Notes under the pieces: generated by a model
Seen by the model: only the letters and a program-made list of their open reading frames with translations
The model's database searches: none
Told to the model about the DNA's origin: nothing
In this document: piece by piece, positions 14,901 to 20,121 of the stretch
How positions within the stretch are numbered: position 1 is the first letter of the stretch
Layout: each line of letters starts with the position of its first letter
Made by a program: the position numbers and the translations under genes
DNA from: Spirogloea muscicola
Lineage: Eukaryota > Streptophyta > Zygnematophyceae > Spirogloeales > Spirogloeaceae
Length of the DNA stretch: 20,609 nucleotides
NCBI GenBank assembly: GCA_009602725.1
Contig: WELB01000222.1
Coordinates: 1-20,609 of the forward strand
Direction: 5' to 3'

Positions 14901-16625
14901 CGCTGGAGCTCCCGCACGAGGCTGGCGTCCACCAGAGCCCCCTCCTGGGGCTTCCATGGCAGCTCTGCAGTGTCAGGACGTCACTTCGAGGTTGAGGGGC
15001 GTGAGCAATGGGGAGACCCCGGCAGAGGAAGCGGCGTGCCAGTTGTGCGCCGGAGTGGCCGATAGCGCCAGCATCACCTGGCGAATGTCCAACTGACCAT
15101 CACATTGCCTGCATAGAAGAAGAACAATGTGCCTCGAGGCCCCAGGCAGTCCAGCAACCACCAACAGCAGACTGCAGACTAGCCCCACAACCGAGAGGGA
15201 TGGACACGAGAGCGACAGCGGTCCTGACGGCAGCAACCTGCCCGAGGTCAAGAGCAGTGGCAGTGCGCGGCTCACCTTGAAGGAGGCTCACCACGTCAGG
15301 CGCCGACGCAGACGGCTCCTCCGTCACGGTCCCATTGCTCACATGCAGCTGCGGGTTGCAGTAATTGACGCCCACGGCGCTGCAGGCTTGAAATACCATG
15401 CGATTCTCGGTGAGGGTGCCCGTCTTGTCGCTGAAGACGTAGCGCACCTGGCCAAGGTCCTCGTTGATGTTGAGCGCGCGAACCTGCAGCCCGCGGCCAG
15501 TGGCGCCGTCCACCATGTGGCGGTCGTGGGACATGAAGAAGGCCTGGCCGAGGCGCATGAGCTCCAGGGAGATGTACAGCGAGATGGGAACCATGATTTG
15601 GCACACAATGAGCACGGAGAAGAAGTTGAGCACAGCCTCGCCGAGCTTGCCATGGTAGCTGTGCGCGGCGCCGTAGTAGGGCAGCGTGTGCACGTCGTGG
15701 CGGTCGAGCCAGAGGCCCATGCCCAGCGCGCCAATGAAGCAGAGGACGCCGAGGAGGCAGGCCAGGACCACGATCTCGCGGTTCATCAGAACCTCCAGCC
15801 GGCTGCGCTTGCTCTGGGCTCCCGACGAGTTGAGCACGACCTTGGTGTCGGGCCCCGTGTAGACAGCCACCGCCACAACGCTGGCGGTGTTGCGGACCTC
15901 GGCCCCGCGCAAGATCATGTTGCCAGGGCCCACGGGCAAGCGCTGCGGTGCTGCGCCGGCGCTCCCAGCCCCCTGCTCAGCACCCGCCGGCGCGGCAGCC
16001 TCGGCTGGCAGCTCCAAGTAGGCGAGGAACTCGTAAATGTTGCGGTGCGGGGGCTCGCAGACGACGGTTGCGGCGGCGAGCGCGGCCTGGTCGCCCTCCT
16101 CCACCAGCCGCTGCGTCTGCGGCAGCGCCCGGCGGCTCTTGAGCGTGGACTCGCCGTCCAGGTTGCCGGTCTCGATGTAGCACAGGCCGCCGGGCGCGGA
16201 GGAGGAGAGCAGCAGCATGTCGCAGGGGACGCGCTCGCCAGCGTGCAGCTGCACCACATGCCCGACGCGCACATCGCGCCAGGGCGTGTCGGCGTACGAC
16301 TGGCCGCCGCCGGCGCCGGGGCCGGGCTGCAGGACGCGGCAGATGCGGGCATTCTCCTCGCGGTCGGCGCGGTGGCGGCCCCAGTCCTCGTACGCGTCCT
16401 TGATGGCGGTGACGACGAGCACGAGGACGAGGGGGAAGACGGAGGCGGTGCGGCCGAAGACGGCGAGCTCGGGGATCTGGTTGAGGATGGCGATGACGAG
16501 GAAGTAGGAGTAGGCGACGCGGTGGAACTGCTCGAACAGGTTGCGGGGCAGGAAGGAGAGCGCCGAGTACTTGCTGGTGCGCACGGAGTTGCCGGGCAGN
16601 GCGCCGCGGCGGCGGCGGCGGCCAT
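11950..16625 (-). CDS. P4-type ATPase (phospholipid flippase), 7 exons
   Basis: Moves phospholipids from the outer to the cytosolic leaflet using a P-type ATPase cycle; P4 enzymes usually work with a CDC50/ALIS subunit in Golgi, endosomal or plasma membranes. Exons in gene order: about 16625-15276, 14964-14622, 14399-13475, 13351-13228, 13117-12898, 12778-12320, 12214-11950, about 1,220 residues. Visible: [20 protein letters not shown] before TM1; A-domain NLDGEST (16147-16158 encodes DGES; the family has DGET); TM4 PISLYISLE, the P4 signature; phosphorylation motif DKTGTLT (15409-15429); KGADSAMM and [26 protein letters not shown], split by an intron; and the C-terminal membrane block [21 protein letters not shown] basic insert, [12 protein letters not shown], lies in the cytosolic catalytic loop. 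The N-terminus is uncertain because of the n at 16600. Confidence 0.93.
16600..16600. other. Unknown base at the flippase N-terminus
   Basis: An ATG at 16625 followed by an alanine run (M-A-A-A-A-A) is not in frame with [11 protein letters not shown] unless the n stands for 2 bases modulo 3. If n is a single base, the frame is instead open upstream into retroelement sequence without a convincing start. The first reading, with missing sequence at n, is preferred. Confidence 0.7.
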
Positions 16626-16644
16626 GGGGGGGCGGGGGGGGCCG

Positions 16645-16656
16645 CCTGACGTCAGG
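16645..16656. promoter_or_regulatory. Palindrome with a TGACGTCA core upstream of the flippase
   Basis: The perfect 12-bp palindrome CCTGACGTCAGG lies about 20 bp before the putative flippase ATG. TGACGTCA is the consensus site of CRE/ACGT-binding bZIP factors. It could be a promoter element or lie in the 5'UTR; function is inferred from motif alone. Confidence 0.4.
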
Positions 16657-16689
16657 CCCCGCGCCCCGCCGAGCGGCGACGGCCGAATG

Positions 16690-16900
16690 GTAGGAAGGGC
16701 TCGCCCATTGAGGACAGGGGCTGGAAAAGCCAGCCCAGAAAAAAAGAAAGGACCAAGTACGAGAAGGGGGCCAGGGCAAGCGCCAGGACAAACAAGCACA
16801 ACAAGAAACAAAGCAGCTACGTATCACTCAGTAACCCCTGCTAAGCAGCCTCAGGTCAGAGAAGCTGGGCTCCTCGAAGTGGGTCCCCTGGCCAGAGCTT
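16690..16900 (-). mobile_element. Retroelement 3' end next to the flippase start
   Basis: The minus strand reads the last 20-odd codons of the element (GQGTHFEEPSFSDLRLLSRGY, stop at 16828-16830), then the usual tail with GCTTTGTTTCTTGTTGTGC, and finally the hairpin GGGCTGGCTTTTCCAGCCC and GGGCGAGCCC. The tail ends about 65 bp upstream of the putative flippase ATG. The tail closely resembles that of the longest copy (20122-20250). Confidence 0.85.
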
Positions 16901-17169
16901 CCACCTGCCTAGCCGCTGGTCCGCTGCAGCCCTGGCGCCGTCGCCGTCCGGTGTTCGGGCATCAGCCAGCGACCTCGCCGTGCTCTCATTCTTGGTTTTA
17001 ATAAGCGGGTCAGCTTAGCAGCAGGTGAATGTACATCTGTTCAAGGGCTTGCCTCGGTACTTGTGCCACTCACGTCTGCACTTGCTGACTGCTTGCCTAC
17101 CCCAGTTCTGAGACAGCGCTTTTGGGCCCTTAGGACCCTCGTCATTTCTTTTCGACTGGCTTTTCACAG
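16901..17169. other. Unassigned sequence between two element fragments
   Basis: No recognisable gene. The last part (about 17130-17169) is a diverged hairpin-type tail repeat (CGACTGGCTTTTCACAGCC) that abuts the next element copy. Confidence 0.4.
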
Positions 17170-17909
17170 CCATCGCCCCGTTTGCCAGCAACGCCGACGC
17201 TGCGGAGCTGGTTGCACACATGCTCTGCTGTGCGCACGGGGGCGAGCAGACCAGGTCCCACGACCTCTTGCGGGACGGCATGCATGGCATTTTCTTAGAA
17301 GCTGGCTACATGGTGCCGGTGGAAAATACGTCTGTCATTCCCAACCAGCTGAGGCCGGACGGTCAGCTCCATACACGGCGTGCAGACCTGGTCGCCATCC
17401 CGCCTGGAGGCGATCCTTGCATCATTGCGGATATGGTAACTGCCGACTGTGTCGACTCCGTCAACCTCACAAACTCGGCGCCGACAGCAGGGCACGCGGT
17501 CGGCACGGCAGCTCGAGGGAAGGAACGCAAGTATGCAGATCATCCAGTTGGAGATGAGTTCGCAGCACTCGCAATCAACGTGCACGGGGCCTTCAGCAGT
17601 CGCTGGCTGAATCTCCTGCAGCAGCTTGCCCGGCAGGCCATTGATCGTCGCCAGGGTCCGCAAGGGGAGCTGCCCGGCTGCAACTCTGCTGGGTCGCTTG
17701 CCCAGGTCTTCCGTATGCGGCTGTCAGACTCTTTCCCGTGCTCCCTAGGTCACGCAGTCCACTTGCGGGCAGGCCGTGCTGTGGCTTCTGCATCTGGGTC
17801 TAGGCGGGGTGCTTCTTTCCCAGCTGCGAGTTACTCCGGCATGCTGCTGCTCACTTGTCGTTACTATGCTTTCATCTGCAGTAGTCTCGTGGATAGCTGT
17901 GTGCTTTAA
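17170..17909 (+). pseudogene. Retroelement C-terminal domain, copy 4
   Basis: An open frame of about 245 codons without a proper start. In order it shows H-x3-C (HMLCC), SHDLLRDGMHGIFLEAGY, HTRRADLVAIPPGG...IIADMVT (endonuclease-like D...D spacing), GKERKYADHP, LAINVHGAFSSRWLNLLQQLARQAI, GSLAQVFRMRL and HLRAGRAVASASGSRRG. The cysteine pair upstream of the H-x3-C is absent, and the C-terminus drifts away from the usual RGY end, reading on to VDSCVL. It is about as long as the C-terminal half of the split copy at 19317-20121 and clearly diverged from it, so it belongs to an older or separate subfamily. Confidence 0.75.
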
Positions 17910-18379
17910 AGCGCCTTCCAGCTCTGTGGACCTTGTCCATTTCTATTGGGCTGGCCATTCCCAGCCCCTACCTTCTCTGGGAGAGCCACTTTTGCAGTCA
18001 ATTTGGGAAGCGCTTTTCTTTTTCTTCCGAGTGGTTATCGCTGCAACTTACCTCCGGCTTGCGGCTGCTGACTCGGCGGTACTATATAAGCTTCCATTCG
18101 CTGAAGTCTGTTGCAGAGAGCTGTACGGATTTGGCGCCGGTCGGTGCTTTGGGGCCTTGTCCATTCCATCTGGGCTGGCCCTTCATAGCCCCCGCCCCCG
18201 TCAGAAAGTTGCACTACTCCGATTACCCCTTCAGACCTTGTCCATTCTTTTGGGCTGGCCTCTCCCAGCCACCAGTTACTCTGGCCGCGCTCGCTTTGAT
18301 TACCCCCAATGTGATCAGCTCCTGCCAGCGGCAATCGACATCTTTGGCTGCTTAGGTCCTCGTTCAGGCGACGCTACCC
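17910..18379 (+). repeat. Array of three retroelement tail repeats
   Basis: Three hairpin units occur at about 17948 (TGGGCTGGCCATTCCCAGCCCC), 18171 (TGGGCTGGCCCTTCATAGCCCC) and 18249 (TGGGCTGGCCTCTCCCAGCC). Each is preceded by a GGNCCTTGTCCATTC-like lead. The third matches about 5615-5680 closely. No coding feature is seen. Confidence 0.75.
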
Positions 18380-18828
18380 CTCAGTTACGGCGGTCTCGGC
18401 TTGCGCCCGCTCGTCCGTTCCTGCCGGGCGGCGTACCTCGGCAGCTAGGCGCAGACAACCGCCTCCGTGGCCCAGCGCTTCTTGGTCCACGGCCGGCGTG
18501 CGCTGGAGCAGGCGGTGGTGGAGGCAGAAACGGGTGTGCTGCCTTTCCAGGCGTCGCCACGCTCCGCCCACCAGGAGCTGCTCGCGGCGCACCCGGAGCT
18601 GGCGGGCCAGGCGGTCTCCTTTGCGCACCACGCGCACACCGATGACCTGCGCGTCCAAGCGCGCTTCGCAGCCGCGATGGACAAGGCAGCATTCACCACC
18701 GCCTTGCTGCGGCTCCCGGAGGCCAACCTGCGCGGGCGCGCGCAACTCCACTCGGCCTCTTCCCCGGGGGCCGCTGCGTGGCTCCAGGCCCTCGCCCTCA
18801 ACGACGCCCTCACTCTCCCGGACGGGGT
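18380..18828 (+). pseudogene. Retroelement protein, upstream half of a split copy
   Basis: The open frame from about 18445 encodes a region that, in RT-bearing polyproteins I recall, sits between the reverse transcriptase and the zinc-finger/nuclease end: RAQLHSASSPGAAAWLQAL followed by LTLPDGV, where the family normally continues into an (A/F)RLALRLRLG-like block. Here it stops at an abrupt switch to AT-rich mitochondrial sequence near 18828. There is no start codon context and no reverse transcriptase motif. The rest of the protein resumes at about 19317. Assignment rests on remembered family patterns and position. Confidence 0.65.
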
Positions 18829-19316
18829 ATATTAGCTGGTATATAATTATCAGGGTGTCCTAGCACATTTGGTGCATAGAACATAAAAATGGAAAAGAAT
18901 ATAGCAAAAGCTACCCAACCTACAAGGTCCTTCACATGAAAGTAAGGATAAAAAGCAATTTTATCCACTGAAGGATTAATGCCTAAAGGATTGTTAGAGC
19001 CATATTGGTGCAATGCAGCAATATGCAAAATACTTACGCCTGCAATGAAAAAGGGCATCAAGTAGTGAAGACCAAAGAAACGATTTAGTTGCTCCCTGAA
19101 AAAAGATTTTTTTAACTTGATAACACCTCTAAAATAGCCATTCATACAAACTTATTCACTGATTTTTATGCATTGATTGGCTCTGGCAGTTATGAAACAG
19201 GTTGGTACACTACAATATTGAAATTGCCTTTTCTTTTTTTGATTTGGATAGGCTTTTTTTTTGCTTCTGTAGGTAGTATGTTAAGTTTACGATTGCAGTT
19301 ATCTAAAAAAAAAGTG
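18829..19316. other. Nuclear insertion of mitochondrial DNA (NUMT) inside the retroelement
   Basis: A block of about 480 bp that is strikingly AT-rich compared with both flanks, with sharp edges. The left edge falls inside GACGGGGTATATTAG, where 2-3 bases are compatible with both sides (possible microhomology). The right edge is near AAAAAGTGGATTGGCTG. It contains a cytochrome b fragment on the minus strand (18831 to about 19090) plus about 225 bp of AT-rich sequence I cannot assign. Confidence 0.88.
18831..19090 (-). pseudogene. cob: Mitochondrial cytochrome b (cob) fragment
   Basis: About 86 codons of cytochrome b, an electron-carrying subunit of respiratory complex III. Visible are [49 protein letters not shown] and [15 protein letters not shown]. 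Both histidines of the second haem-ligand pair (LHY and LHI, 14 residues apart) are present and there is no stop or frameshift. The fragment breaks off just before the expected proline of YIPANP, where retroelement sequence begins. Upstream of LNRFF the similarity ends, either at a mitochondrial intron boundary or at a rearrangement. An open frame continues in from 19145 but is not recognisable as cob. Confidence 0.92.
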
Positions 19317-20121
19317 GATTGGCTGTGAGATTGACGTCGAGGTCCAAGAACAAGAACCTCGACTCTCTTTTTGATTTCGCAGTGCCGTCCACCGGCTCCT
19401 GGGCCTGCCGCCACCATGTCTCTAGGGTGTGCGTGAGTGCGAATGTGGCGAGCGAGGGGCCGAGCCTGGGGAGCTGGCCGCTCATGTTTTGCGCTGTTCC
19501 CATGGCGGAGAGCGGACAGCGGCCCACGACCGCCTCCGGGATGCGATGCATGGCATCCTGGTGGAGGCTGGCTTCTCGGTGGCAGCGGAGAACTCCGCCG
19601 TCATGCCGCTCCAGCAAAGGGCCGACGGTCTCCACGCACGTCGCGTAGACCTTGTGGCCAACCCACAAGCCGGCGGGCCACATCTTATCCTGGACCTGGT
19701 GACCACAGAAGCATACGATCGCTCACACCCAGCCCAATGTGCCATCAAGGCTGGGTATGCGGTCGCCTGCGCTGCTCGAGCTAAGGAGCTCAAATATGCT
19801 GATCATCCGCGGGAAGACGAGTTCTTCCCGCTGGCTATTGACACGCATGGGGCGTTGGGCGCTCGGTGGCTCGAGCTGCTCAACCAGCTCGCCCGCCACG
19901 CCATCGTCCGCTGCTTCCATGGGGAGCCGGTGGACTTTCCTGCAGCAGGATCGCTAGCGCAGGTGTACCGGATGCGCTTGGCCGTCTCGCTGCAGAGGTC
20001 TATGGCCCGCGCGCTGCACCTGCGTGCCGGCAGAGCCCTCGCTGCTGCCTCTGGCTCTGGCCAGGGAACCCACATCCAGGAGCCTAGTTCTGACCTGAGG
20101 CTGCTCAGCAGGGGTTACTGA
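19317..20121 (+). pseudogene. Retroelement C-terminal domain, longest copy (downstream half of the split copy)
   Basis: After the NUMT the frame reads AVRLTSRSK..., then shifts near 19425 into a 230-codon frame ending at 20121. That frame contains a C-x-C...H-x3-C finger (CECG...HVLRC), AAHDRLRDAMHGILVEAGF, ARRVDLV with a second acidic residue 15 positions on (LILDLVTT), AKELKYADHP, LAIDTHGALGARWLELLNQLARHAI, GSLAQVYRMRL and the end DLRLLSRGY. The finger followed by R-x-D-x14-D and a KY motif resembles the restriction-like endonuclease end of R2-type non-LTR retrotransposons; this is inference. It could still be another element class. The frame shift and NUMT make this copy inactive. Confidence 0.75.

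Follow-up and report, generated by a model that had tools for sequence, protein, structure and literature searches.

The retrotransposon copy and its insert

The window analyzed here, the whole 20,609-nucleotide stretch of Spirogloea muscicola DNA, makes up one contig (C222) of an assembly of 471 contigs and 153 Mb, all of which was searched for related sequences. Near its right end, a copy of an R2-like element is interrupted by an insert that consists, end to end, of a piece of the mitochondrial gene cob in antisense orientation, a piece of the mitochondrial gene ccmF in sense orientation and a short tail (Table 1). The GC content is 0.724 in the left flank, falls to 0.363 over cob and 0.318 over ccmF, and rises again to 0.651 in the right flank. 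This step, together with the matches to other copies of the element, bears out the description in the first-pass annotation of a sharply bounded, AT-rich block that splits a GC-rich retroelement frame. The block had been placed at 18829–19316, however, and its limits are now those in Table 1. It had also been taken to be cob throughout, which holds for the first 259 bp, whereas the ccmF piece, in the opposite orientation, and the tail make up the sequence from 19090 onwards.

Table 1. Features of the insert and of the interrupted element, with positions in the window.
Feature	Position	Strand	Basis and remarks
Host copy, left half: R2-like non-LTR retrotransposon, 5′-truncated	18363–18830	+	Reading frame and other copies; start approximate, set by eye
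Whole insert	18831–19373		543 bp, AT-rich; search of the whole assembly with 18700–19450
Insert fragment 1: internal piece of mitochondrial cob	18831–19089	−	86 open codons; identity to other NUMTs, Pfam, PDB
Insert fragment 2: 3′ end of mitochondrial ccmF to the stop codon (19326–19328)	19090–19328	+	PF16327, 11 loci, translation
Insert tail after the ccmF stop	19329–19373	+	Common to other ccmF NUMTs until about 19344
Host copy, right half: AT repeat, then zinc-finger-like and nuclease-like C-terminal region	19374–20121	+	Matches to other copies

The cob and ccmF fragments

In the whole-assembly search, the cob fragment matched four other nuclear insertions of mitochondrial DNA (NUMTs) with 98, 96, 95 and 94% identity. 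Its antisense frame scored 45.7 bits against PF13631 (cytochrome b/b6 family), above the cut-off, and 24.7 bits against PF00033, below the cut-off, while a profile search of the genome itself gave 44.7 bits. The same region of the cob NUMT on contig C16 (L001) matched mitochondrial cytochrome b in the PDB with up to 271 bits, but cytochrome b6 with at most 50 bits. The closest entries were 8bel, 7jrg and 8e73, which we take to be land-plant complexes. A plastid origin from petB was rejected because of the far weaker match to cytochrome b6, and because a plastid-like contig with petB and petD (C460) was absent from the insert's DNA matches.

As the first-pass annotation had stated, the cob frame is uninterrupted over the length of the fragment. 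It differs from the C16 NUMT at five positions, four of which change an amino acid. Two of these differences, one silent and one not, are common to the NUMT on C32. Three changes are found in none of the four aligned relatives, and all three alter the protein, so that the frame is open because of its limited age and not because of constraint.

The 70-residue ccmF piece scored 27.8 bits against PF16327, the C-terminal CcmF model, for which the cut-off is 28.7; a profile search of the genome with the same model gave 35.3 bits for ccmF, above the cut-off. No homologue of ccmF was found in the PDB. The ccmF-related stretch reaches about position 19331, and includes an in-frame TAA at 19113–19115, the middle base of which is not found in either of the two relatives spanning it. 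The best match to the stretch as a whole (19090–19331) in the assembly was on C82, at 77% identity. In a second search, ccmF pieces of 45 to 274 bp were found at 11 loci, including two pairs of near-copies (C42/C16 and C241/C50), with separate pieces matching at 85–91%. The last 28 bp of the insert (19346–19373) occur nowhere else in the assembly when up to three mismatches are allowed. A possible hairpin in the tail (19336–19343/19356–19363) was discarded, as 33 of 200 shuffled sequences folded as well or better (z = −0.99). According to the survey in PMC10879542, mitochondrial ccm genes have been lost in all chlorophytes and in several streptophyte lineages. Taken together with the closest PDB entries of cob and those of a probable plastid petD (see below), this points to a streptophyte alga, in which a mitochondrial ccmF would be ordinary.

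Judged by these matches (Pfam and PDB for cob, PF16327 for ccmF), the two fragments are of mitochondrial origin. The insert itself probably resides in nuclear DNA, since both flanks belong to one copy of an element that is present on many large contigs. It gave no indication of function, and would have drifted as neutral nuclear DNA.

The host element is R2-like

The C-terminal part of the host element yielded no Pfam or PDB match on its own, and nuclease-like residues picked out there by eye may correspond to the pattern of a restriction-like endonuclease. The window flanks align to a full-length relative on contig C338 (L043), which has a single open frame of 1350 amino acids. This frame matched RVT_1 with 58.7 bits, and its best PDB matches were three R2 proteins (E-values of 7e-07 to 1e-06). 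By eye, zinc-finger-like motifs lie both before and after the reverse transcriptase, with scores below the Pfam cut-offs. From the reverse transcriptase of this copy, which is nearest to R2, the host element is classified as an R2-like non-LTR retrotransposon, an assignment made from best matches and not from a tree. It resembles R2-like elements in the single frame, the reverse transcriptase and the zinc-finger-like motifs on either side of it; it differs from them in its numerous copies, which are scattered across many contigs. When the 423-residue open C-terminal frame of another copy (L026) was used as the query, the 99 matches listed were spread over many contigs; 82 of them were stop-free, and many lay in frames of more than 1000 amino acids.

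The first-pass annotation had described the insert as splitting a gene. This is true in form only, as the host copy is 5′-truncated and has two in-frame stops of its own outside the insert, a TAG in LGS*AQ on the left and a TAG in PPCL*GV on the right. These stops may predate or postdate the insertion.

Elsewhere in the window, a second, diverged C-terminal fragment of a similar retroelement was recognized by eye at 17112–17909 on the plus strand (no Pfam match), and a long minus-strand frame at 15100–16827 contains the motif DKTGTLTEN and looks by eye like a P-type ATPase (flippase-like) gene.

Empty sites and junctions

The flanks of the insert (18700–18830 and 19374–19450) matched 34 other listed places, taken from the best 40 of 442 candidates scored, with 84–95% identity, and the two halves adjoined each other in all 34. 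The first-pass annotation had proposed looking for the empty site in other copies of the element. We read this site in 25 copies (23 from the 34 listed places and two from L043), all of which lack the insert. The usual sequence of the empty site is GAGGTAT|TTCGCAG or GAGGTAT|TCCGCAG. In 24 of the copies the flanks are contiguous to within about one base (L011, for example, has an additional T), while the remaining copy, L010, is diverged over about 10 bases at this position.

The flanks in the window read GGGGTAT at the end of the left one and ATTTCGC at the start of the right one. No bases of the element were lost at the insertion site, and the AT at 18829–18830 recurs at 19374–19375. This AT on both sides of the insert could be due to chance or be part of the insert. 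Beyond the left joint, TTC would have followed in the element, whereas AGG would precede the mitochondrial sequence, so that no bases are shared; the 2–3 shared bases previously claimed for this junction were not found. At the inner joint, cob would have continued with G, whereas C or A precedes ccmF in two relatives, and no bases are shared in the simplest alignment. An alternative alignment that assumes a deletion of 2 bp in cob would shift the joint about 3 bases to the right. The inner joint is absent from all NUMTs that cover its position: past it, the cob sequence continues in all four cob NUMTs, and each of the two ccmF NUMTs goes on in a way of its own, never with cob.

Relative age of the insert

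A tree was made from the window and 22 copies of the element, leaving out L010, L011, the second copy in L043 and L026, which is the same as the L042 copy. The terminal branch leading to the window was 3.7% in this rather rough tree, in which L040, with only ≈100 bases of overlap with the right flank, sits on a branch of 0.77, and in which the node joining the window and L042 has a support of 0.747. At 3.7%, 9.7 changes would be expected in the 259 bp of cob, and three to five were seen. The corresponding Poisson probability is 0.013 for three changes and 0.08 for five, taking the 3.7% branch as exact and the rates as equal, with changes counted against other NUMTs. The earlier claim that the host copy is older than the insert is thus supported as probable. 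If the rates are equal, the insert would have roughly a third to a half of the age of the branch. The transfer had also been called recent, which fits in relation to the element only; with three to five changes in cob, the insert is not brand new. The ccmF part gives no firm date: among 250 positions covered by two or more relatives, there was one clear private change, and five positions were unclear. This count omits L016 and L020 because they nearly duplicate L015 and L019.

Origin of the insert

We consider it likely that the insert is a complex NUMT made up of two fragments, with the mitochondrial state reconstructed from other NUMTs, and there is a good probability that both fragments were captured during end-joining repair of a break in the element copy. 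A double-strand break would have occurred in a copy that may already have been damaged, perhaps with a 2-nt stagger that was then filled in, and end joining would have closed it with organelle DNA as filler. The joint between cob and ccmF would have formed in the same repair or shortly earlier. The break itself left no direct trace, and we infer it. The zero bases shared at the left joint and, in the simplest alignment, at the inner joint match blunt end joining. The left joint, the intact element sequence and the AT on both sides are of the kind looked for in NHEJ-type repair, and this genome contains several independent NUMTs. Capture of organelle DNA in break repair, as proposed in the first-pass annotation, is therefore still the likely route, but without the microhomology claimed for the left junction.

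The cob and ccmF pieces might instead have been joined beforehand, in a rearranged or subgenomic mtDNA, and inserted as a single linear piece. A large ccmF piece on C138 lies near a tRNA-Pro gene, and on C16 and C84 that tRNA-Pro adjoins cob, so that the two genes may be neighbors, or joined, in the mtDNA. Since no second instance of the window's joint was found in the assembly, whether in the four cob and two ccmF NUMTs that cover this position or at any other place, we regard this explanation as rather unlikely. We give a similarly small chance to the idea that cob and ccmF reach the nucleus together from one rearranged, break-prone stretch of mtDNA, which is based on the presence of ccmF, tRNA-Pro and probably cob together on C138; if true, the mosaic NUMTs of this genome would record subgenomic mtDNA molecules. 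It is less likely still that the pieces were copied from older nuclear NUMTs rather than directly from mtDNA. Many short ccmF and cob pieces are indeed scattered over nuclear contigs, and C32 has two of the five differences that separate the cob part from C16, but the whole ccmF piece occurs nowhere else above 77% identity, even where separate pieces match better, and private changes of the relatives account for most differences in the ccmF pile-up.

A chimeric assembly is very improbable. Although all the evidence comes from one assembly, without mapped reads, the two halves of the element meet to the base (plus 2 bp), unlike a chance join, and the insert has substitutions and a stop that are absent from its relatives. 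We attach even less weight to the possibility that the retrotransposon's own reverse transcriptase captured mitochondrial RNA through template switching. LINEs are known to form chimeras at truncated 5′ ends, and on C16 a mitochondrial sequence ending in tRNA-Pro directly adjoins a truncated R2-like copy. In the window, however, element sequence flanks the insert on either side, which would require the enzyme to have departed from and come back to the same base, and cob is antisense while ccmF is sense; on these grounds the explanation was rejected for this insert. Moreover, R2-like protein matches were found at 7 of 15 NUMT loci, compared to 6 of 20 random 3.2-kb stretches (Fisher P = 0.48).

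Capture during end-joining repair also agrees with what has been described for other NUMTs. In the primate events reported in PMC2820518, joining occurred both at microhomologies and in their absence, and over half of the insertions involved no deletion. Complex NUMTs, defined in PMC6215612 as nuclear insertions of several mitochondrial fragments, have inner joints that are blunt or share 1–3 bp in the plant cases described there, an account that leaves out the terminal junctions. The insert in the window is alike in having two mitochondrial fragments end to end, blunt-looking joints and no loss of target sequence. It does not differ in kind from complex NUMTs, but its host is a high-copy element, which allows both the terminal junctions and the empty site to be read from one genome. 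The insert is thus probably an ordinary repair scar and a further complex NUMT, one whose target is unusually easy to read. It leaves the picture of NUMT formation unchanged, while providing a clean example of loss-free insertion with a blunt left joint. A NUMT in a high-copy element makes the junctions, target loss and relative age readable without a sister species.

Other NUMTs in the assembly

The 15 NUMT loci compared with random stretches were L001–L005 and L066–L075. This set excludes the window and the COX1 pieces, as well as C16:838478 and C50, which are near-copies of C42 and C241. The random stretches came from 20 of the 471 contigs, those of known length. L066, L072 and L073 contained many N, three of the random stretches were all N and one was two thirds N. 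With the 17 random stretches that remained after removal of the three all-N ones, the P value was 0.72. A preference of NUMTs for the R2-like element was thus not supported, there being no significant excess over the 20 random stretches, although a moderate preference would be possible at these sample sizes.

Among the best candidates scored in the COX1, cob and ccmF searches, only pieces of mtDNA were found, and no intact mtDNA. The four cob NUMTs (L001–L004, on C16, C26, C32 and C84) lie in differing surroundings, and their pairwise alignments end near one position in cob, HIVPE|W, within a few bases for C16 and C32 and ≈20 bases for C26 and C84. On C84 (L004, C84:249700–252900), two minus-strand cob pieces (C84:251151–251360 and 251787–251960) have a tRNA-Pro(TGG) between them on the other strand, perhaps reflecting an intron or rearranged mtDNA. 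The AT-rich NUMT on C32 (L003, C32:456700–459900) consists of several joined genes, with nad5-like and nad4-like frames, recognized by eye, next to cob.

On C138 (L074, C138:363400–366600), a ccmF piece with an open frame of 333 amino acids is followed, ≈350 bases beyond, by a tRNA-Pro(TGG) on the other strand, with a cob-like stretch (by eye) in between; to the eye, this looks like a second place that joins ccmF and cob. The reverse nesting to that in the window was seen on C155 (L066, C155:205700–208900), where an R2-like fragment of less than 200 bp, at about 1423–1805 of this locus on the minus strand, splits a ccmF NUMT, and the two ccmF pieces around it overlap by ≈2 bases. The short, AT-rich contig C460 (17,852 bp; L045), with petB-like and petD frames, is probably plastid DNA. 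Its petD matched the PDB entry 6rqf, presumably from spinach, with 333 bits and 1q90, presumably from Chlamydomonas, with 288 bits.
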